Source: an uncultured Oscillospiraceae bacterium (GTDB taxonomy: Bacteria > Bacillota > Clostridia > Oscillospirales > Oscillospiraceae). Taken from it: a stretch of 64,000 bases of DNA. The notes under the pieces are model-generated. The model was not told the DNA's origin, ran no database searches, and saw nothing but the letters and a program-made list of their open reading frames with translations. The stretch spans positions 18,607 to 82,606 of the forward strand of contig CALXDC010000006.1 of NCBI GenBank assembly GCA_944386975.1. The letters are read 5' to 3'. Both the position numbers and the translations under genes were made by a program. Positions 4,871 to 61,161 of the stretch are shown in pieces (position 1 is the first letter of the stretch; each line of letters opens with the position of its first letter).

Positions 4871-5746
4871 ATGGAACAATCTACCAATCTCTCTGCCCTG
4901 GGCCGCCGGGCGGACGCGCGGCGGCGGACTCTCCGGGCCTTCACCTATCTGGGGCTCAGCCTCTGGGCGGTGCTGGTGCTCTTCCCTTTCTACTGGATGG
5001 TCCTCACCTCCTTCAAGAGCTACGCCGCCTACAACGGCGAGCACATCCCGGTGCTGTACACCCTTTCCCCAACCCTGGAGAACTACCGCCAGGCCTTCAC
5101 CGCCGTGCCCCTGGGGCGGTACCTCCTGAACACCCTCATTTTCGCCCTGGTGACCACCGCCCTCATGGTGGCGGTGAGCACCCTGGCAGCCTACGCCTTT
5201 GCCCGGCTGTCCTTCCGGGGGAAGGACCTGGTGTTCGGCCTCTTCCTCTCCATGATGATGATTCCCAGCGAGCTGGTGGTCATCACCAACTTCGTCACCA
5301 TCACAGACCTGGACCTCCGCAACAGCTTCCCGGGGCTCATTCTGCCCTCCATCACCTCGGTGTTCTACATCTATCTCCTGAAAGAGAACTTCGAGCAGGT
5401 GCCCGACGAGCTCTACCGGGCGGCCAAGGTGGACGGAACCTCGGACCTCAAGTACCTGTGGAAGGTGCTGATCCCCATCTGCCGCCCCACCCTGGTGACC
5501 ATCACCATTCTGAAGATCATCGAGTGCTGGAACAGCTATGTCTGGCCCCGGCTCATCACCGACGACCAGGCCTACTTCCTGGTGTCCAACGGCATCCAGG
5601 AGATCCGGGAGAACGGCTTTGGCCGGGAGAACATTCCCGCCATGATGGCCGCCGTGGTGGTGATCTCGGTGCCCCTGATTCTCCTCTTCCTGGCCTTTCG
5701 CAGGAAGATCATGGAGGGGGTCTCCAGAGGAGGGATGAAGGGATGA
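4871..5746 (+). CDS. Carbohydrate ABC transporter permease, second subunit (UgpE/MalG-like)
   Basis: Second membrane subunit, 291 residues, six predicted membrane spans, with LFPFYWMVLTSFKS after the first span as in MalG/UgpE proteins. Its EAA loop is LYRAAKVDGTSDLKYLWKVLIP. I start at ATG 4871, which follows GAGGAGGGACC; the open frame extends further upstream, but only as a shadow of the preceding permease. The stop overlaps the ATG of the binding-protein gene (ATGA), which suggests translational coupling. Confidence 0.9.
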   Translation: MEQSTNLSALGRRADARRRTLRAFTYLGLSLWAVLVLFPFYWMVLTSFKSYAAYNGEHIPVLYTLSPTLENYRQAFTAVPLGRYLLNTLIFALVTTALMVAVSTLAAYAFARLSFRGKDLVFGLFLSMMMIPSELVVITNFVTITDLDLRNSFPGLILPSITSVFYIYLLKENFEQVPDELYRAAKVDGTSDLKYLWKVLIPICRPTLVTITILKIIECWNSYVWPRLITDDQAYFLVSNGIQEIRENGFGRENIPAMMAAVVVISVPLILLFLAFRRKIMEGVSRGGMKG

Positions 5747-7332
5747 ACGCCATGAACCGTTTTTTCTCCCTGGCTTTGGCCCTTCTCCTCTGCCTCTCTC
5801 TCACCGCCTGCCACGGCAGCCGGGAGCAGGCGGCCTTCGCCGTGCCGGAGGCCTTTGACGAGAGCCGGAACTATGAGATCACCTTCTGGGCCAAAAACGA
5901 CACCAACAAGCGGCAGACCGACATCTACAAGGGAGCTATCGAGGACTTTCAGGCCCTCTACCCCAACATCACCGTCACCCTCCGGCTCTACACCGACTAC
6001 GGGGACATCTACAACGACGTCATCACCAACATCGCCACCCAGACCACCCCCAACGTGTGCATCACCTACCCCGACCACATCGCCACCTATCTCACCGGGG
6101 ACAACGTGGTGGTGCCCCTGGACCAGCTCTTTGCCGACGAGGCCTACGGCCTGGGGGGCAGCGCGCTCCGCTTCGACGGCCCCGCTTTGGAGGAGATCGT
6201 CCCCCAGTTCCTCTCGGAAGGGCGGCTGGAGGGGGCCTACTACGCCCTGCCCTACATGCGCTCCACCGAGGCCTGCTATGTGAACAAGACCTACGTGGAG
6301 GCGCTGGGCTACACCCTGCCCGATGTCCTCACCTGGGACTTCGTGTGGGAGGTGAGCCGGGCGGCGGCGGAGCAGAACGCCGACGGCACCTATGCCCTCA
6401 ATGGACAGAAGGTGATGATCCCCTTCCTCTACAAGTCCACCGACAACATGATGATCCAGATGCTGCGGCAGCTGGGGGCGGGCTACGCCTCGGACAACGG
6501 GGTGATCCAGCTGTTCAACGAGGACACCAAGGCCATTTTGGAGACGGTGGCGGAGAACACCGCCGCCGGGGCCTTCTCCACCTTCAAAATCTCCGGCTAT
6601 CCCGCCAACTTCTTAAACGCCGGTCAGTGCGTCTTTGCCGTGGACTCCACCGCCGGGTCCACCTGGATGGGCAGCGGCGCGCCTCTGGTGGACATCCCGG
6701 AGGAGGAGATCGTGGACTTTGAGACGGCGGTGCTGCCGGTGCCCCAGTTCGACCCGGAGAACCCCAAAATGATCTCCCAGGGCCCCTCTCTCTGTATCTT
6801 CAACAAGGAGGACCCCCAGGAGGTGCTGGCCTCCTGGCTCTTCGCCCAGTACCTCCTCACCAACGAGGTGCAGATTGCCTACGCCCAGACCGAGGGCTAT
6901 GTGCCGGTGACCTTAAAAGCTCAGGAGAGTGCGGAATATCAGGACTACCTCTCCCGGGCGGGGGAGGACGGGGACACCTACTACGAGGTGAAGCTCCAGG
7001 CCGTTCAGCTGCTCCTCAGCCACCAGGAGGACACCTTCATCACCCCCGTCTTCAACGGCTCCGCCTCCCTCCGGGACGCGGCGGGCCACCTCATCGAGAG
7101 CGTCACCAAGTCGGTGCGCCGAAAGGAGACGGTGGACGACGCCTATCTGGAGGCCCTCTTTGCCGACACCCGGTCCCTCTACCACCTGGACTCCCTGACT
7201 CCCTCCGGGGGCAAGACGGACTTGGGGCCCCTGCCCGCCGCCTCTGCGGCCCTGCTGACAGGTCTGGGGACGGTGTGGATGTTGCTTCTCCTCTGGGCTC
7301 TTTTCCGATGGAAAAAACGAAGGAAACCTTGA
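5743..7332 (+). CDS. Extracellular solute-binding lipoprotein with an added C-terminal membrane anchor
   Basis: Substrate-binding component of the ABC importer, family 1. A lipoprotein signal ends in the lipobox LTAC at about residues 21-24. The mature part starts a periplasmic-binding fold with ITFWAKNDTNKRQTDIYKG and TPNVCITYPDHIATYL. It is 529 residues long, about 80-100 longer than usual. The extra C-terminal part ends in a hydrophobic stretch (TGLGTVWMLLLLWALF, about residues 503-520) followed by RWKKRRKP, a classic stop-transfer signal. This would fix the protein at both ends, which is unusual for the family. AGGAGGG is 8 nt before ATG 5743, and the start overlaps the permease stop. Confidence 0.88.
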   Translation: MNAMNRFFSLALALLLCLSLTACHGSREQAAFAVPEAFDESRNYEITFWAKNDTNKRQTDIYKGAIEDFQALYPNITVTLRLYTDYGDIYNDVITNIATQTTPNVCITYPDHIATYLTGDNVVVPLDQLFADEAYGLGGSALRFDGPALEEIVPQFLSEGRLEGAYYALPYMRSTEACYVNKTYVEALGYTLPDVLTWDFVWEVSRAAAEQNADGTYALNGQKVMIPFLYKSTDNMMIQMLRQLGAGYASDNGVIQLFNEDTKAILETVAENTAAGAFSTFKISGYPANFLNAGQCVFAVDSTAGSTWMGSGAPLVDIPEEEIVDFETAVLPVPQFDPENPKMISQGPSLCIFNKEDPQEVLASWLFAQYLLTNEVQIAYAQTEGYVPVTLKAQESAEYQDYLSRAGEDGDTYYEVKLQAVQLLLSHQEDTFITPVFNGSASLRDAAGHLIESVTKSVRRKETVDDAYLEALFADTRSLYHLDSLTPSGGKTDLGPLPAASAALLTGLGTVWMLLLLWALFRWKKRRKP

Positions 7333-18383: not shown

Positions 18384-20378
18384 ATGGCAGCAAGCAAAAA
18401 ATCCTACGGCAACACCTCCATCAGCGCCCTGAAGGGGGCGGACCGGGTCCGGAAACGGCCCGGCGTCATTTTCGGCAGCGACGGTCTGGACGGCTGCGAG
18501 CACGCCGTATTCGAAATCTTATCCAACTCCATTGACGAGGCCCGGGAGGGCCACGGCAAGATCATCACCGTCAAGCGCTTTTTGGACCACAGCGTGGAGG
18601 TGGAGGATCAGGGCCGGGGCTGTCCGGTGGACTGGAACGAGAAGGAGCAGAAATATAACTGGGAGCTGGTGTTCTGCGAGCTTTACGCCGGCGGCAAGTA
18701 CGGCAACAACCAGGGGGGCAACTACGAATACTCCCTGGGACTCAACGGCCTTGGCTCCTGCGCCACCCAGTACGCCTCCCGATATATGGACGTCACCGTC
18801 TGGCGGGACGGCTATGAGTACACCCTCCGCTTTGAGCGGGGCGAGGTGGTGGGGGAGAAGGGAAAGGAGCTCCAGAAGACCCCCCTCAGCAAAAAGCGCA
18901 CCGGCACCCGGACCAAGTGGCTTCCCGATTTGGACGTGTTCACCGACATCGACATCCCCGCCGACTACTTTACCGACGTGATGAAGCGGCAGGCGGTGGT
19001 GAACGCCGGCATCACCTTCCGGTTTCAAAACGAGGTGAGCCGGGGAAAATTCGAGACCACGGAGTTCCTCTATGAAAACGGCATTGCCGACTATGTGAAG
19101 GAGCTGGCGGGGGAGGAGAGCCTCACCTCCCCGGTGTTCTGGGAGGCGGAGCGAAAGGGTCGGGACCGTGCCGACAAGGACGAATATAAGGTAAAGCTCA
19201 GCGTGGCCTGCTGCTTCTCCAACCGCACCCACGTCATTGAGCACTACCACAACTCCAGCTGGCTGGAGCACGGGGGCAGCCCGGAGAAGGCCACCCGATC
19301 CGCCTTTGTAGGGGCCATCGACGCCTGGCTCAAGCAGAACAGCAAGTACCAGAAAAACGAGAGCAAGGTGACCTGGGCGGACGTGGAGGACTGTCTGGTG
19401 CTGGTGAGCAACAACTTCTCCACCCAGACCAGCTACGAGAACCAGACCAAGAAGGCTATCACCAACAAATTCATCCAGGAGGCTATGACGGAGTTCCTCC
19501 GGGAGCGGCTGTCGGTGTACTTCATCGAGACCCCCACCGACGCGGCGAAGATCGCCGAACAGGTGCTCATCAACAAGCGGTCCCGGGAGCGGGCGGAACA
19601 GACCCGTCTCAACATCAAAAAGAACCTCTCCGGCAGCATCGACATCGCCAACCGTGTGCAGAAGTTTGTGGACTGCCGCACCAAGGATGTGAGCCGCCGG
19701 GAGATCTATATTGTGGAGGGCGACTCGGCCCTCGGCAGCGTAAAGCTGAGCCGGGACGCGGAGTTTCAGGGAATCATGCCCGTCCGGGGCAAGATTCTCA
19801 ACTGTCTGAAGGCGGACTATGCCAAGATCTTCAAAAGCGAAATCATCACCGATCTCATGAAGGTGCTGGGCTGCGGGGTGGAGGTCCAGAGCAAGCACAA
19901 GGACCTGAGCTCCTTTGATTTGAGCAATCTCCGGTGGAGCAAGGTGGTCATCTGCACCGACGCCGACGTGGACGGCTTCCAGATTCGGACGCTGATTCTC
20001 ACCATGCTGTACCGGCTGTGCCCTACCCTCATTGAGAAAGGGTACGTGTATATCGCGGAGTCGCCCCTCTTTGAGATCACCTGCGGGGAGAAGACCTGGT
20101 TTGCCTACTCCGAGAAGGAGAAGGCGGAGATCGTGAAGTCCCTGGAGGGGAAGAAGGTAAAGATCGACCGGAGCAAGGGCCTCGGCGAGAACGACCCGGA
20201 CATGATGTGGCTGACCACCATGAACCCGGAGACCCGGCGGCTCATCAAGGTGATGCCCCAGGAGGCGGAGCGCACCAGCGCCATGTTTGAGCTGCTTTTA
20301 GGAGACAATCTCCAGGGCCGGAAGGACCACATCGCCGAGAACGGGTATAAATTTTTGGATTTGGCGGATATCTCCTGA
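18384..20378 (+). CDS. parE: Type IIA DNA topoisomerase B subunit (ParE-like paralog)
   Basis: ATPase subunit of a type IIA topoisomerase, 664 residues. GHKL ATP-binding motifs are present (VRKRPGVIFGSDG, EILSNSIDEA, DQGRGCPVDW, GLNGLGSCATQYAS). The Toprim domain has EGDSALGSVKLSRD and CTDADVDGFQIRTL, so the acidic metal residues are intact, and MPVRGKILN is conserved. It is more divergent than a housekeeping GyrB (EGDSALGS instead of EGDSAGGS). I read it as the second, topoisomerase IV-like enzyme of Clostridia; the name parE is by analogy. Its A-subunit partner lies 2.7 kb downstream, separated by repeat copy A and a secreted protein. GGAGG precedes ATG 18384. Confidence 0.88.
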   Translation: MAASKKSYGNTSISALKGADRVRKRPGVIFGSDGLDGCEHAVFEILSNSIDEAREGHGKIITVKRFLDHSVEVEDQGRGCPVDWNEKEQKYNWELVFCELYAGGKYGNNQGGNYEYSLGLNGLGSCATQYASRYMDVTVWRDGYEYTLRFERGEVVGEKGKELQKTPLSKKRTGTRTKWLPDLDVFTDIDIPADYFTDVMKRQAVVNAGITFRFQNEVSRGKFETTEFLYENGIADYVKELAGEESLTSPVFWEAERKGRDRADKDEYKVKLSVACCFSNRTHVIEHYHNSSWLEHGGSPEKATRSAFVGAIDAWLKQNSKYQKNESKVTWADVEDCLVLVSNNFSTQTSYENQTKKAITNKFIQEAMTEFLRERLSVYFIETPTDAAKIAEQVLINKRSRERAEQTRLNIKKNLSGSIDIANRVQKFVDCRTKDVSRREIYIVEGDSALGSVKLSRDAEFQGIMPVRGKILNCLKADYAKIFKSEIITDLMKVLGCGVEVQSKHKDLSSFDLSNLRWSKVVICTDADVDGFQIRTLILTMLYRLCPTLIEKGYVYIAESPLFEITCGEKTWFAYSEKEKAEIVKSLEGKKVKIDRSKGLGENDPDMMWLTTMNPETRRLIKVMPQEAERTSAMFELLLGDNLQGRKDHIAENGYKFLDLADIS

Positions 20379-20384
20379 TGCTGC

Positions 20385-21104
20385 CCTCTGGCCGGGCAGG
20401 GCCGTTTTTGTCCCTGACGAGGGCGGACGGCGTTTTGTCGGTGCCCGACGGTGTACTGCCCGGTGTTTTGCCTCCGGCGGCCTACTTTTGTCGCTGAACA
20501 AAAGTAGGCATCTCCGCGCTAAGAGCCTCGCTATGCTCGGTTGCGCTCCGAAACACCTCGCTGCGGCTTGGTGAAAATCAGCTTAGAACCTACGGTTCTA
20601 AGGATTCCCTTATTTCCCAAATCTGAAAATCCTGATGTTTTGGCGTGATTTTGTCTTTCTGACGCAGCAAGGGGGTGACAGTTCCCCTGTTTCCGCGCTT
20701 CAGCGCGCTCCCCTGGTGGTGGTAGGGGCCTCTGCTCCCGATGTTGTCAAATTTGCTAACGCCGCACAAGCTCATTCACGGAAAAACGGTAGGCGAAAAA
20801 ATCAGCGTCTACCCACCGCATGAGCGCGCTAAAGCGCGGCGCTTCAAGCAGAAGACGACCCAAACAGGCGTCACCCGTATAAAACCTTCAACAGAAAGCC
20901 TCCCTGACCATCCGGTCTTGGTAATAAAAAAAGGAGTTCTTAGAACCATGGGTTCTAAGTCAACTTTTGCCTACTTTTCTTTGACGAGAAAAGTAGGCCG
21001 CCGGAGGCATAACACCAAACGAAATACCGTCGGGTACCGACAAAGCGACATTCGCCCTCGTCAGAAGGGCAAAAACAGCGCCGGTCCCGGCAGCCGAGGG
21101 GACA
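20385..21104 (+). repeat. Composite inverted-repeat element, copy A
   Basis: Non-coding stretch between the topoisomerase B gene and the stalk-domain gene. The outer ends are inverted copies of each other: left GGTGCCCGACGGTGT and GCCTCCGGCGG, right CCGCCGGAGGC and ACCGTCGGGTACCGAC. Each arm has a hairpin (20481-20508 with arms CCTACTTTTGT/ACAAAAGTAGG; 20970-20997 with arms CCTACTTTTC/GAAAAGTAGG) and a palindrome with arms CTTAGAACC and GGTTCTAAG (20582-20602 and 20939-20959). The left arm has an extra module of about 70 bp (20509-20576, CTCCGCGCTAAGAGCCTCGC...), shared only with copy D. The core contains CCGCGCTTCAGCGCGCT and GAAGACGACCCAAACAGGCG in the same orientation as copy D. No convincing gene lies inside. 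Confidence 0.85.
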
Positions 21105-21208
21105 ATTTTTCCCCTTTTCCCCGTGCCCACCATCCTCATATGTGGATGTTTCAGATAAGTCGAGAGAAGAAATCAGGAGAAGAACAAACAGATTGGAGGA
21201 AAACTAAG

Positions 21209-22972
21209 ATGAAAAAGCTGTTTGCGCTGATGCTGGCGCTGGTGATGACCCTGTCTCTGGCCGCGCCCGCCATGGCCGCCGACCAGCCCCTGTGGCAGCA
21301 GATGGGCTACGAGAGCCAGCAGGAGCTGCTGGACTGGTACGGCATTTCCCAGGCCAATTATGACGCCATCGCCGCCAAGTTCGGGAGCTTCGACCCCTAC
21401 GCCTACTACGCTGAAAATGAGCAGATGTTCTGGGAGATGACCGCCCAGGAGTACATGTCCACCTACGAGGTGACGGAGGAGGAGTTCCGGCAGGAGATGC
21501 TCTCCTACTGGTTCTATAACCAGTACACCCCCCTGATGGAGCAGCAGATGGTGGACGACGCCATCACCGCTGTGGGCGGCGTGCCCGGTCAGATCAACGT
21601 CATGTGGAACGGCAAGTGCATCCAGTTCACCGACGCCGCTCCCGAGATCGCCAACAACCGCACCATGGTGCCCATTCGGGCCATCATGGAGGATATGGGG
21701 GCCGAGGTGACCTATGAAAACCGCACCGTCACCTGCATCCTCAACGGCGCCACCGTCACCTTCCCCGTGGGCGGCACCTCCGCCACCGTGGAGAAGGACG
21801 GCGAGACCGAAACCGTCACCCTGGACAGCCCCAGCTATCTCAAGAACAACCGCACCTACGTCCCCGTCCGCTTCATCAGTGAGGCCTCCGGCTACGACGT
21901 GTTCTGGGACAACGCCGCCCGCACCGCCGTCATCGTGGACCGGGAGGCCGCCGTGGCCGCCCTGGACGAGAATCTCACCATTCTCAACGAGATGATGCAG
22001 AAGCAGTACGCCCAGTACGATTTCAACAAGGCCTATGAGATCGACTACACCCTGGACGGCACCGTGGCCGTGATCGACTTCCTCAGCGGTAACAAGAACT
22101 ACGACTTCGACGCCGATATGACCGTTCTGTGGAAGGGCGCCGACTATGAGATCAACGGCTCCCTCCAGCTGGGCGACGTGATCGACGCCCTCATGGATGT
22201 GGGTGAAATCTACGCCGACGAGATTCCCGCGGAGCTGCTGCCCCTGCTGAAGGATCTGGACTTCTCCATGATCCTCTCCGGCGAGGGCTGCTGGATCAGC
22301 GCTCCCGTCCTTACCTATGTGCTGGCCCAGGAGTATCCTCAGCTGTCCGGCAAGGACGTGTGGCTGGATATGGGCAAGGCGCTGGGCATGGACATGAGCC
22401 AGCTGATGGAGATGTCCGCCGCCCTGATGACCGAGGACGCCACCCTCGGCAGCCTCCTCTATGACAGCAGCGTTATGTCGATGGAGATGCTGGGCGGCAT
22501 GGACCAGGTGAGCTACCTGAACTTCCCCGCCACCCTGGGATTTACCAAGACCATGCTGGACGCCCTTCTGGGGGACGACACCTTCACCAGGAGCGGCACC
22601 TCCTACAAGTGGACCATGGATCTGGCAAGTCTCTATGCCGCCATGGAAATACCCGTAACCGAGGAGGAACTGGCGGGCGGCGACTTCTCCATGGAGATGA
22701 CTATCCGCTCCAACGGCTCCGTGGACTACGACCTGACCCTCTCCCTCAACGACTATAATATCGTCTCCGGGGGCTACACCGACGATGCGCTGGTGACCTT
22801 CACCCTGTCCGGTACCTCCGGCGCCCTCAGCGGCAATATGGATCTGCAGCTGCAGATCAAGAACGTGGCGGACGCCAAGCTCACCGCGAAGTACACCGGT
22901 CGCACCACCGTCAAGACTCCCGCCGCTCAGCCTCCCGCCGGCAGCGAGATTCTGGACCTCTCCAGCCTGTAA
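21209..22972 (+). CDS. Secreted protein with stalk domain (copper amine oxidase N-terminal-like)
   Basis: Exported protein of 587 residues. The signal peptide is MKKLFALMLALVMTLSLAAPAMA with likely cleavage after AMA. A helical part rich in Tyr and Glu comes next. Two stalk-domain repeats follow at about residues 130-250: NNRTMVPIRAIMEDMGAEV and NNRTYVPVRFISEASGYDV are their hallmarks. The remaining 330 residues are beta-rich and resemble lipoprotein-like surface proteins without a catalytic motif. Such stalk domains occur on cell-surface proteins of Clostridia. ATG 21209 is supported by GGAGG 9 nt upstream; the frame is open far upstream into copy A, but those codons are not real coding sequence. 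The position between the two topoisomerase subunit genes gives no functional hint. Confidence 0.85.
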   Translation: MKKLFALMLALVMTLSLAAPAMAADQPLWQQMGYESQQELLDWYGISQANYDAIAAKFGSFDPYAYYAENEQMFWEMTAQEYMSTYEVTEEEFRQEMLSYWFYNQYTPLMEQQMVDDAITAVGGVPGQINVMWNGKCIQFTDAAPEIANNRTMVPIRAIMEDMGAEVTYENRTVTCILNGATVTFPVGGTSATVEKDGETETVTLDSPSYLKNNRTYVPVRFISEASGYDVFWDNAARTAVIVDREAAVAALDENLTILNEMMQKQYAQYDFNKAYEIDYTLDGTVAVIDFLSGNKNYDFDADMTVLWKGADYEINGSLQLGDVIDALMDVGEIYADEIPAELLPLLKDLDFSMILSGEGCWISAPVLTYVLAQEYPQLSGKDVWLDMGKALGMDMSQLMEMSAALMTEDATLGSLLYDSSVMSMEMLGGMDQVSYLNFPATLGFTKTMLDALLGDDTFTRSGTSYKWTMDLASLYAAMEIPVTEEELAGGDFSMEMTIRSNGSVDYDLTLSLNDYNIVSGGYTDDALVTFTLSGTSGALSGNMDLQLQIKNVADAKLTAKYTGRTTVKTPAAQPPAGSEILDLSSL

Positions 22973-28473: not shown

Positions 28474-29386
28474 TGTCCCCTCGGTTGCCGGGACCGGCGC
28501 TCGTTTTGTCCCGCTGACGGGGACAGCGTCCTCTTTGCCGGTACCCGACGGTGTACTGATCGGTGTTTTGCCTCCGGCGGCCTACTTTTGTCGCTGAACA
28601 AAAGTAGGCAAAAATCAGCTTAAAACCTACGGTTTTAAGAATTCCCTTCGTTTCCTACCGAAACTTGGAAGTCAGGGAGGCTCTTTGCTGTTGGCTTGGT
28701 CCGGGCGACGCCTGTTGACGTGCGTGTTTGCGTCTCCTTCCGCGCTTCGGCGCGCTGCCTTGATGGTCGTTTTGGCCTGTTCGTCTACCGGTTTCCAAAA
28801 CTTGACAGTCAGGGAGGCCTTTGGTTGCTGGCTTTGTACAGGTGACGCCGATTCGGGTCATCTTCTGCTCCTGCGCCGCGCTTCAGCGCGCTCATGCGGT
28901 GGGTTGGCGGTAGTCGATTCGTCTAAAGCCTTCCCCCGCTGGGGGAAGGTGGCGCGAAGCGCCGGATGAGGGACCGCGCAGTGCAGGATAACGGTAAAAG
29001 GAAGTCTCTGCCCTTGGGTTCCCCTCATCCGCCTCCTTCGGAGGCACCTTCCCCCAAGGGGGGAAGGCTTTCAAATTGGGAAATTGCAGAAGCCCCAACC
29101 ACCACCAGGGGAGCGCGCTGAAGCGCGGAAGGAGGGGAACTCCGACCCCCTTGCATCCGTCAGCCGGGAAAACCGGCGAAACAAACGGTACAGACTCCCC
29201 ATAACAGGCCGAAAGGAGTCCTTAGAACCTTGGTTCTAAGCGGACTTTTGGTGACTTTTCTTCCGCGAGAAAAGTCACCCGCCGGAGGCAAAACCAGATA
29301 TCGAAACACCGTCGGGTACCGACAAAAAAAGACCACACCCTCGCCAGAAGGACAAAAAAGAGCCGGTCCCGGCGGCGAGCGGACAA
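28474..29386 (+). repeat. Composite inverted-repeat element, copy B
   Basis: Fills the 940-bp gap between radC and a DMT transporter gene. Left arm: GCCGGTACCCGACGGTGT, GCCTCCGGCGG, hairpin 28581-28608 (arms CCTACTTTTGT/ACAAAAGTAGG) and palindrome 28619-28639, changed on both sides to arms CTTAAAACC/GGTTTTAAG. Right arm: palindrome 29221-29240, hairpin 29250-29279 (arms GGTGACTTTTC/GAAAAGTCACC), then CCGCCGGAGGC and ACCGTCGGGTACCGAC. The core lies in the opposite orientation to copies A and D, and part of it appears twice (GGAGGC-containing blocks near 28675 and 28815). A nested element sits at 28925-29071. No gene is evident. Confidence 0.85.
28925..29071 (+). repeat. Nested 147-bp palindromic element inside copy B
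   Basis: Bounded by AAAGCCTTCCCCC and GGGGGAAGGCTTT. Each end forms a CCTTCCCC/GGGGAAGG hairpin. The left half continues GGTGGCGCGAAGCGCCGGA then TGAGGGACCGCGC, and the right half GGGTTCCCCTCATCCGCC then TCCTTCGGAGGCACC. The same element lies in copy C with the two halves in reverse order. Confidence 0.85.
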
Positions 29387-34805: not shown

Positions 34806-35560
34806 TCCCTCGGCTGCGGAGACCGGCGCTGTTTTGTCCCGCTGACGGGGACGGCGTCCTCTTTGCCGGTACCCGACGGTGTACTGTCTGGTGTTTTGCC
34901 TCCGGCGGGTGACTTTTTGAACGAGCAAAAAGTCACCAAAAACTCGCTTAGAACCAAGGTTCTAAGAACTCCTCTCGTTACCAAAACCGGGTAATCAGGG
35001 AGACGTTTGGTCGTTGGCTTGTACGAGTGACGCCTGTTTGGGTCGTCTTCTGCTTGAAGCGCCGCGCTTTAAGCGCGCTCGTGCGGTGGGTGGACGGTGG
35101 TCCTCTCTAAGCCTTCCCCCTTTGGGGGAAGGTGCCTCCGAAGGAGGCGGATGAGGGGAACCCAAAGGCAGGGACTTCTTTTTATCAATACATTACACCG
35201 CGCGGTCCCTCATCCGTCACGGCTGCGCCGTGCCACCTTCCCCCAGCGGGGGAAGGCTTTCGATGGGGGAAATTGCAGAAGCTCCAACAGCCACCAGGGG
35301 AGCGCGCTGAAGCGCGGAAACAGGGGAACTCCGACCCCCTTGCATCCGTCAGCCGCAAAAGCCACCAAAATAACGGGACAGACTTCCCATAATAGGCCGA
35401 AAGGAGTCCTTAGAACCTTGGTTCTAAGCTGATTTTTGCCTACTTTTGTTCAGCGACAAAAGTAGGCCGCCGGAGGCAAAGAAGGGTTCGAAAACCCGTC
35501 GGGTACCGACAAAAAAGCCCAGGCCCCTCGTCAGAGGGCAAACCGGCCCGAGGCGGCGGT
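34806..35560 (+). repeat. Composite inverted-repeat element, copy C
   Basis: Fills the gap between the small export protein gene and the hypothetical gene at 35609. Left arm: GCCGGTACCCGACGGTGT, hairpin 34908-34937 (arms GGTGACTTTTTG/CAAAAAGTCACC) and a palindrome CTTAGAACC-AA-GGTTCTAAG. Right arm: the palindrome CTTAGAACC-TT-GGTTCTAAG, hairpin 35439-35466 (arms CCTACTTTTGT/ACAAAAGTAGG), CCGCCGGAGGC and CGTCGGGTACCGAC. The hairpin types are thus swapped compared with copy B. The core orientation matches copy B, and the nested element at 35108-35260 lies the other way round. Confidence 0.85.
35108..35260 (-). repeat. Nested palindromic element inside copy C, inverted relative to copy B
   Basis: Bounded by AAGCCTTCCCCC and GGGGGAAGGCTTT. 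The half with GGTGCCTCCGAAGGAGGCGG and TGAGGGGAACCC comes first and the half with CGCGCGGTCCCTCATCCG and TGCGCCGTGCCACC second, the reverse of copy B. Confidence 0.85.
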
Positions 35561-60445: not shown

Positions 60446-61161
60446 GTCCGCTCGGTTGCCGGGACCGGCGCTTCTTTTTTCAGCCCTCTGACGAGGGTAG
60501 GTCGTTTTTTGTCGGCGGCCGACGGTGTTTCGATACCTTGTTCTGCCTCCGGCGGGTGACTTTTCTCGCGGAAGAAAAGTCACCATCTCCGCGCTAAGAG
60601 CCTCGCTGCGCTCGGTTGCGCTCCGAAACATCTCGCTGCGGCTCGGTGAAAGTCCGCTTAGAACCAAGGTTCTAAGGACTCCTTTTGGCCTATTATGGAA
60701 AATCTGTCCCATTTGTTTCGGTAAATCATGCGGCTGACACTGCAAGGGGGTCGGAGTTCCCCTCCTTCCGCGCTTGAAGCGCGCTGCCCTGGTGGTGGTA
60801 GGGACTTCTGCACCGATGCTGTCAAACTTGCCAAAGCCGTAATAGCTCATTTGCGGAAAAGCGGTAGACGAACCGACCATCGTCAACCCACCGCATGAGC
60901 GCGCCGAAGCGCAGCGCAGGAGCAGAAGACGACCCAAACAGGCGTCACTCGGACGACACCTCCGACCAAAAGCCTCCCTGACTTCCAAGTCTCGGTAGGA
61001 AACAAAGGAGTTCTTAGAACCTTGGTTCTAAGCGAGTTTTTGGTGACTTTTTGCTCGTCCAAAAAGTCACCCGCCGGAGGCAGAACAAGGTATCGAAACA
61101 CCGTCGGGTACCGACAAAAACAACCAGCCCCTCGTCAGAGGGGAAAACGGCCCGCCCGGCC
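60446..61161 (+). repeat. Composite inverted-repeat element, copy D
   Basis: Lies between the YgiQ gene and the acetylation pair. Left arm: GGCGGCCGACGGTGT, GCCTCCGGCGG, hairpin 60555-60584 (arms GGTGACTTTTC/GAAAAGTCACC), the extra 70-bp module and a palindrome CTTAGAACC-AA-GGTTCTAAG. Right arm: CTTAGAACC-TT-GGTTCTAAG, hairpin 61042-61071 (arms GGTGACTTTTTG/CAAAAAGTCACC), CCGCCGGAGGC and ACCGTCGGGTACCGAC. The core runs like copy A and has no nested CCTTCCCC element; a cassette around 60818-60870 (ATGCTGTCAAACTTG...) holds that place. No gene is evident. Confidence 0.85.

Follow-up and report, generated by a model that had tools for sequence, protein, structure and literature searches.

A family of intergenic elements with structured inverted ends and a four-base match between hairpin loop and hairpin foot

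Four homologous elements between genes

The window analysed here, a 64-kb stretch of DNA, is part of contig C6 of a MAG (G000) that comprises 2.66 Mb in 96 contigs and is about 90% complete. Four elements lie in it (Table 1), the first directly preceded by a gyrB/parE-type topoisomerase gene (18384-20378). The preliminary description of this DNA had reported four copies with shared ends that face each other, each holding an arm hairpin, a palindrome and a core without a gene, and all lying between genes. These points hold. The copies are homologous (76.6% identity over 687 columns between copies 1 and 4), and the left and right ends of each copy are inverted repeats (70.9-83.6% identity over 110-179 columns). 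Arm hairpin and palindrome were located by pattern in all four copies, and the neighbouring genes confirm that every copy is intergenic. No convincing gene was seen in the cores, where copy 1 was checked closely and the other three through the ORF list alone. The long mechanical ORF over copy 1 (20741-22972) was rejected as the downstream signal-peptide gene read upstream of its ATG at 21209. The palindrome at the left of copy 2 reads CTTAAAACC..GGTTTTAAG, and the right-hand reverse complement of CCGACGGTGT is absent from copy 3 at one mismatch or fewer.

Table 1. Coordinates of the four elements and their parts in the window.
Feature	Position	Strand	Remarks
Element copy 1	20385..21104	.	Between gyrB-type topoisomerase gene and Cu_amine_oxidN1-domain gene; outer ends uncertain by some tens of bases
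Copy 1 left arm, H1	20480..20509	+	Loop CGCTGA
Copy 1 left arm, optional insert of ~63 nt	20510..20573	+	Borders approximate
Copy 1 left arm, foot of P (TCAG)	20578..20581	+	Complementary to H1 loop CTGA
Copy 1 left arm, hairpin P	20582..20602	+	CTTAGAACC..GGTTCTAAG
Copy 1 right arm, hairpin P	20939..20959	-	Palindrome pattern
Copy 1 right arm, H1	20969..20998	-	Loop CGTCAA; foot TTGA at 20960-20963 matches
Element copy 2	28474..29386	.	Between radC-type and EamA-type genes
Copy 2 left arm, H1 + linker + P	28580..28639	+	Loop CTGA / foot TCAG
Copy 2 right arm, P + linker + H1	29221..29279	-	Loop CGGA / foot TCCG
Element copy 3	34806..35560	.	Between Sm_multidrug_ex gene and gene without Pfam match
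Copy 3 left arm, H1 + linker + P	34908..34966	+	Loop CGAG / foot CTCG
Copy 3 right arm, P + linker + H1	35409..35467	-	Loop CTGA / foot TCAG
Element copy 4	60446..61161	.	Between DUF3362/Radical_SAM_N gene and DHHW gene, both minus strand
Copy 4 left arm, H1	60555..60584	+	Loop CGCGGA, then insert, foot TCCG 60653-60656, P 60657-60676
Copy 4 right arm, P + linker + H1	61013..61071	-	Loop CGAG / foot CTCG
GCCTCCGGCGG starts	20470, 28570, 34898, 60545		Reverse complement 20998, 29279, 35467, 61071
CCGACGGTGT starts	20445, 28545, 34873, 60519		Reverse complement 21024, 29306, 61098

The expectation of further copies in this genome and its relatives was also borne out. BLAST with copy 1 returns 209 pieces from its own genome, and element sequence is present in all 10 congeners and, weakly, in only 3 of the 49 other relatives searched. 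The genome has 77 occurrences of the palindrome CTTAGAACC(0-6 nt)GGTTCTAAG, against 0 for a reversed-pattern control. Relative to 20 shuffles, the folding energy of copy 1 is lower by 20.6 s.d. as RNA and by 12.7 s.d. as DNA, much of this excess being the pairing of each arm with the opposite arm. Together, these three results show that the repeats are not due to chance. Complete elements, with both P hairpins and both arms, number 39 in G000 and 11 in the congener G006; the remaining loci in the genome are partial elements. At about 0.7 kb each, the 39 complete elements make up an estimated 1% of the 2.66 Mb.

Architecture of the arms and cores

Read inward, an arm consists of outer terminator-like hairpins, CCGACGGTGT, a small GC hairpin (GCCTCCGGC) abutting the hairpin H1, H1 itself, the linker CAAAA, four bases, and a further hairpin, P. 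H1 has a 12-bp stem (NNNNACTTTTNN/NNAAAAGTNNNN) and a 6-base loop, and P is a 9-bp hairpin that starts with CTTAG. In other genera of the family, arms whose H1 carries CTTTC/GAAAG usually have the linker CAAAG, not CAAAA. Some arms, including the left ones of copies 1 and 4, hold an extra stretch of about 63 nt that separates H1 from the foot tetranucleotide and that the preliminary description did not mention. The insert of copy 1 matches by itself in genus g6 (L035 around 1501-1561, near a tRNA-Leu gene) and thus looks like a separate repeat.

Both arms of an element point inward and flank a non-coding core. Where two arms are neighbours within 1 kb, 27 of 28 pairs face inward (corrected count). 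Inward pairs span 317-778 bp (26 pairs), which is short for a transposase gene, and about 40 arms have no detected partner. Between the P hairpins, the core measures 291-661 bp (51 rows, one of which, L171, repeats a G006 element). It is built of two half-cores of types A, B, C and D with shared segments. In 42 of 50 elements, a half of superclass X (A, C) is joined to one of superclass Y (B, D), a regularity that random filler would not show. When whole cores or half types A-D are folded to a consensus, neither strand is clearly better, and therefore no structural claim is made for the core. Arms with the same loop occur together in 8 of 50 elements against 25.6% expected, a figure not used as evidence. 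A core segment (AAGCCTTCCCCC..GGGGGAAGG, GGATGAGGG) common to copies 2 and 3, at 28963-29070 and 35109-35216 in opposite orientation, resembles a separate nested repeat.

A strict match between the H1 loop and the foot of P

A feature that the preliminary description lacks is complementarity between the H1 loop, in its last four bases, and the tetranucleotide at the foot of P. This match is found in 96 of the 99 arms of the 50 complete elements (one of the 100 arms, L077:128 left, could not be parsed). When the feet are redealt among the arms, the mean is 25.0 matches and the maximum 39 in 2,000 trials. In G000 and G006, the loop/foot pairs are CTGA/TCAG, TCAA/TTGA, CGGA/TCCG, CGAG/CTCG and CCAA/TTGG. 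A broader tally, which includes false candidates, has 210 of 235 candidates perfectly matched in 13 kinds, adding CCAG/CTGG, CGGC/GCCG, TGTG/CACA, CGTG/CACG, CAGC/GCTG, CGCA/TGCG, TGGC/GCCA and TGCC/GGCA. Among the 99 arms, the three unmatched ones are L047:3166 right, L049:3906 left and L064:9232 left. In two insert-bearing arms (L049:3906 left and L053:3177 right), the H1 loop mismatches the foot beyond the insert, as though H1 had been exchanged and its partner left behind.

The match is kept by paired change. In a set of 22 diverse arms from several congeners (22 of 30 aligned arms, with 8 dropped for a clean alignment, mostly for other P lengths), 99.1% of 550 cells are paired in the structure made of H1, P and the loop-foot contact. 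Both sides have changed in 17 of 25 pairs, and one side alone in 0. Sliding the partner by 1-3 columns lowers pairing to 33.5-53.8%. The number of pair types shows no excess (26 against 28.1 in shuffles). This loop-foot match, rewritten between copies and species and rarely broken, points to a selected DNA structure, as far as sequence comparison can tell.

H1 and P are near-perfect palindromes with few intermediates of either kind, as would be expected of a mutational by-product in which template switching keeps palindromes perfect in a selection-free manner. However, template switching within a hairpin does not match a loop to a separate tetranucleotide, and the loop-foot match is as strict as the stems and persists across genera. 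Such an origin of the arms is therefore highly improbable.

Stem composition and the possibility of a structured RNA

The stems are almost free of G-T pairs. Over the 99 arms, H1 has 1179 Watson-Crick, 5 GT, 3 AC and 1 other cells, and P has 887 Watson-Crick, 1 GT and 3 AC, so that G-T cells account for 6 of 2,079 in the two stems together. By comparison, the acceptor and T stems of tRNAs from the fetched loci (12 of 13, those with fewer than 9 of 12 pairs being left out) have 130 Watson-Crick, 13 GT and 1 AC (13/144 GT, 9%). RNA stems that covary this much should show G-U steps, and their near absence fits a structure restricted to Watson-Crick pairs, as in DNA. The composition of the stems would thus favour selection on DNA, as an argument rather than a proof. 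Recombination among copies could hide G-T intermediates. Wobble pairs were also considered as a test of strand and rejected, because there are too few of either kind.

These counts bear on the possibility that the arm belongs to a structured RNA, either a non-coding RNA or a 3' UTR read inward from the neighbour gene. RNA H-type pseudoknots consist of a stem, a match from its loop to downstream sequence and an A-rich connecting strand. The arm has this geometry, with H1 as S1, the loop-foot contact as S2 and an A-rich third loop, and an A-rich linker across the stem would be expected in such an RNA too. Copy 1 and its surroundings hold 9 terminator-like hairpins, whereas shuffles give 1.5; two of the nine are the P hairpins, and roughly half lie in the outer ends. 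The regular X-Y joining of half-cores would also suit a functional transcript, as would the many G-U cells in core folds (206/1,344 for half type A read inward), although these were chosen by the folding program and both strands are alike. Unlike in such pseudoknots, the arms are nearly without G-U even though most of their pairs covary, and the structure occurs as mirror-image copies on both strands. The core folds, as described above, have no clear strand bias. No sigma-70-like promoter was found in 20300-21250, and Rfam has no match at the gathering threshold in the window or in three loci outside it. At E<=1, six loci yield four weak Rfam matches, all outside the arms and far below the cut-offs. 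On balance, a structured RNA is an unlikely explanation. One of the weak matches is T-box-like (L034:1182-1409, 46.6 bits against a gathering threshold of 93) and lies upstream of an arm in G008.

Distribution in the phylum

A covariance model of the arm, built without the loop-foot pairing and giving rough E-values, extends the family well beyond the genus. In the bacterium's own family, Oscillospiraceae, it matches 92 of 300 genomes and nearly half of the sampled genera (49/106; E<=0.001, own genus included). It also reaches other families: in a sample of the order, 43 of 394 genomes match (E<=1e-4), with nine other families among them. A sample of the phylum gives 9 of 398, including G000 and G099 from the own family and four genomes in family f124, outside the class. 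The phylum-wide matches in G925 and G771 are not arm-like on reading, and G815 is counted from the model score alone. Matches scored per genome are capped at 18 or 13 and are thus lower bounds on copy number; many genomes have one to three, and within the own family the count runs from none to the cap.

Since the model contains no loop-foot pairing, the loop-foot match is a largely independent check on these arms. In other genera of the family, 40 of 54 arms, a set that includes near-identical copies from one genome, have at least four complementary loop-foot bases, whereas shuffling gives a mean of 7.3 and a maximum of 14. In a second set, which includes six of the nine other families, partly overlaps the first and has no shuffle baseline, 23 of 40 arms have at least four complementary bases and 33 of 40 have at least three. 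In family f124, the match is present, by eye, at all five loci (L449-L452 and L458, from four genomes).

Outside the phylum, nine loci among the matches listed were read (alphaproteobacteria, Bacteroidetes, Flavobacteriales and Polynucleobacter), and eight were scanned with the model. They have an H1-like hairpin and CAAAA, a combination that the query pattern itself required, and show by eye neither a four-base foot match nor an inward partner; for this reason they are not counted in the distribution. A repeated H1-like hairpin followed by CAAAA is seen in alphaproteobacterial MAGs (L193:1614-1643, L195, L211, L213 and L252; GTTACTTTTGT..ACAAAAGTAAC) and in Bacteroidetes and Flavobacteriales (L215 and L234). 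These hairpins may be convergent or very distant relatives.

Occupied, empty and rewritten sites

Comparison of gene borders in relatives, as the preliminary description had proposed for locating insertion ends and a target duplication, yielded empty sites at two loci. The copy-3 site is empty in five congeners (G007, G003, G010, G001 and G005), where the same two genes are separated by a few tens of bases. It is occupied in G000, in G006 and in the more distant congener G009, which has its own diverged version. In G002 and G008, the left neighbour gene differs, and in G004 one arm is present before the contig ends. At the second locus, in another genus, a segment of about 638 bp with both arms inside (G177, L395 bases 5698-6335; also in G099) is absent from G233, according to BLAST breakpoints. 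The flanks in G233 are contiguous, beside a terminator-like hairpin. No target duplication is visible at this one clean empty site, where the difference may be a gain or a loss. Sequence outside the arms varies among the fetched G099 copies (genus g90). At about 31.2 kb of the window, G006 also has an insertion; it was rejected as an element, since by eye it holds small regulator-like genes instead.

At shared addresses, arms are rewritten in place. G000 and G004 share element addresses, with flank identities of 90-94.5% for copies 2 and 3 and 88% for the copies in L059. In the left arm of the third L059 copy, the loop is CCAA in G000 and CGGA in G004, and the foot is TTGG and TCCG, respectively; one compensated P pair also differs, and the H1 stem and linker are identical. 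In its right arm, copy 2 differs from its G004 counterpart in the loop, the foot and the distal H1 stem, with P and the outer flank unchanged. Overall, three of four orthologous arms have a new loop type and all four keep the match. Such changes could arise from the exchange of short tracts between copies. All six addresses tested in G006 (those of copies 2, 3 and 4 and three in L059) hold element sequence, and the loop types there often differ; at its copy-2 address, the arm finder detected no intact arm. This occupancy argues for stability rather than jumping.

Stable addresses raise the possibility that the host keeps the element, which would have no enzyme of its own, as a two-way transcription insulator or a cruciform or nucleoid site made uniform by recombination between copies. 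Near species share addresses, arm types are exchanged at orthologous loci, and the outer hairpins are terminator-like, all of which would fit such a role. The flanking genes, which also agree with the non-autonomous element proposed below, do so as well: among 38 scored elements (39 examined), 25 neighbourhoods are tandem, 11 convergent and 2 divergent, as counted with a simple codon-usage gene caller that finds 4 convergent and 4 divergent pairs in the whole window. However, a host function of this kind gives no reason for the required match between a loop and the following hairpin's foot. It also sits poorly with the empty copy-3 and g90 sites in relatives and with scored matches that vary from none to many within one family. 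This explanation is thus rather unlikely.

The mover itself was sought through a single enzyme family, the Y1 transposases (PF01797), which have no match in G000, a MAG about 90% complete; a Y1 transposase is thus not supported as the mover in the assembled part of G000. Three of the 11 genus genomes (G001, G006 and G009) have PF01797 matches, none of them seen linked to the arms. The preliminary description had taken the copies for a non-autonomous mobile or structured-DNA family spread by an enzyme encoded outside the window. The first part fits the many intergenic copies, the lack of a visible gene, the symmetric structured ends and the presence or absence at two loci. The second part is unproven, given the PF01797 result, the lack of a visible target duplication and the six addresses also occupied in G006.

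Comparison with known systems and a model of the ends

Most non-coding repeats of bacteria are explained by REP/RAYT systems or as MITEs of known transposons. Classical MITEs have terminal inverted repeats and a target duplication. The elements described here resemble them in being short, non-coding and present in many copies, with inverted ends around a core. Unlike MITEs, their ends consist of several hairpins whose structure is better kept than their sequence. No target duplication is seen at the one clean site, and no related autonomous transposon came to light among the inward pairs examined.

REPINs and REPs, which are associated with RAYTs, are closer. These too occur between genes in many copies, as inverted doublets of a unit that forms a hairpin and has a tetranucleotide at its 5' foot, and they also show compensatory changes and a sequence that differs by species under a conserved structure (PMC3116915, PMC6006769). 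However, the inter-REP spacings given there for P. fluorescens are 71 and 110 bp, against 317-778 bp for inward pairs here (PMC3116915, PMC6006769). The foot is GTAG or GTGG in the REP set used in those papers, whereas here it is variable (TCAG, TTGA, TCCG, CTCG, TTGG, CTGG, GCCG and others) and matches the loop of a second hairpin (PMC3116915, PMC6006769). In addition, no cognate RAYT (Y1 transposase) was found in G000. On these tests of foot sequence, RAYT and span, the last of them several times larger here, the element is not a REPIN.

The ends of IS200/IS605 elements have a subterminal hairpin with a guide tetranucleotide (PMC6006769). Here, too, a guide-like tetranucleotide lies just 5' of a hairpin foot and matches another tetranucleotide, and no target duplication is seen at the one clean site. 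The partner tetranucleotide of IS200/IS605 flanks or ends the element, whereas here it lies in the H1 loop (PMC6006769). The ends of the present element are also mirror images, and no tnpA was found in G000. Palindrome-associated transposable elements were grouped with the IS200/IS605 ends for this comparison. By analogy, the element would work like REPIN or IS605 ends.

A mechanism can be proposed on these grounds. The arm would be recognised as a folded single strand of DNA, such as might form on the lagging strand. The foot tetranucleotide of P would serve as a guide, as at IS200/IS605 or REP ends, and the tetranucleotide in the H1 loop would be its matching target. An enzyme acting in trans would bind both folded ends, position itself by the match between guide and target, and then cut, join or exchange. 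The 13 different perfect pairings would be exchangeable keys. Recombination between copies would shuffle the arms, and the elements would stay mostly at their old addresses. There is, in our judgement, about an even chance that these are non-autonomous, non-coding DNA elements whose structured inverted ends are recognised in trans as a folded single strand. A bolder and less probable version is that they would constitute a new class of DNA element, mobile or exchangeable and old in the phylum, with ends that are single-stranded pseudoknots and carry a four-letter lock (the H1 loop) and key (the foot of P) served by an enzyme in trans. The code would then be free to change if both parts change, so that the ends would be recognised by shape and an internal password, not by sequence.

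In the literature, judged by titles and abstracts with subscription journals mostly outside reach, no description of this element was found. A four-base match that is strict yet freely rewritten, in arms whose stems are nearly without G-T, would be rare evidence for selection on a tertiary contact in DNA.

Plasmid and phage collections have no match to copy 1. In IMG/VR, two arm patterns return 3 and 0 stretches, and two of the three have a loop-foot match by eye. These two viral contigs (L459:11019-11052 and L461:598-631) have an arm-like hairpin with loop/foot TCAG/CTGA and GGAC/GTCC, respectively, and are possible carriers, or may represent host DNA near contig ends.
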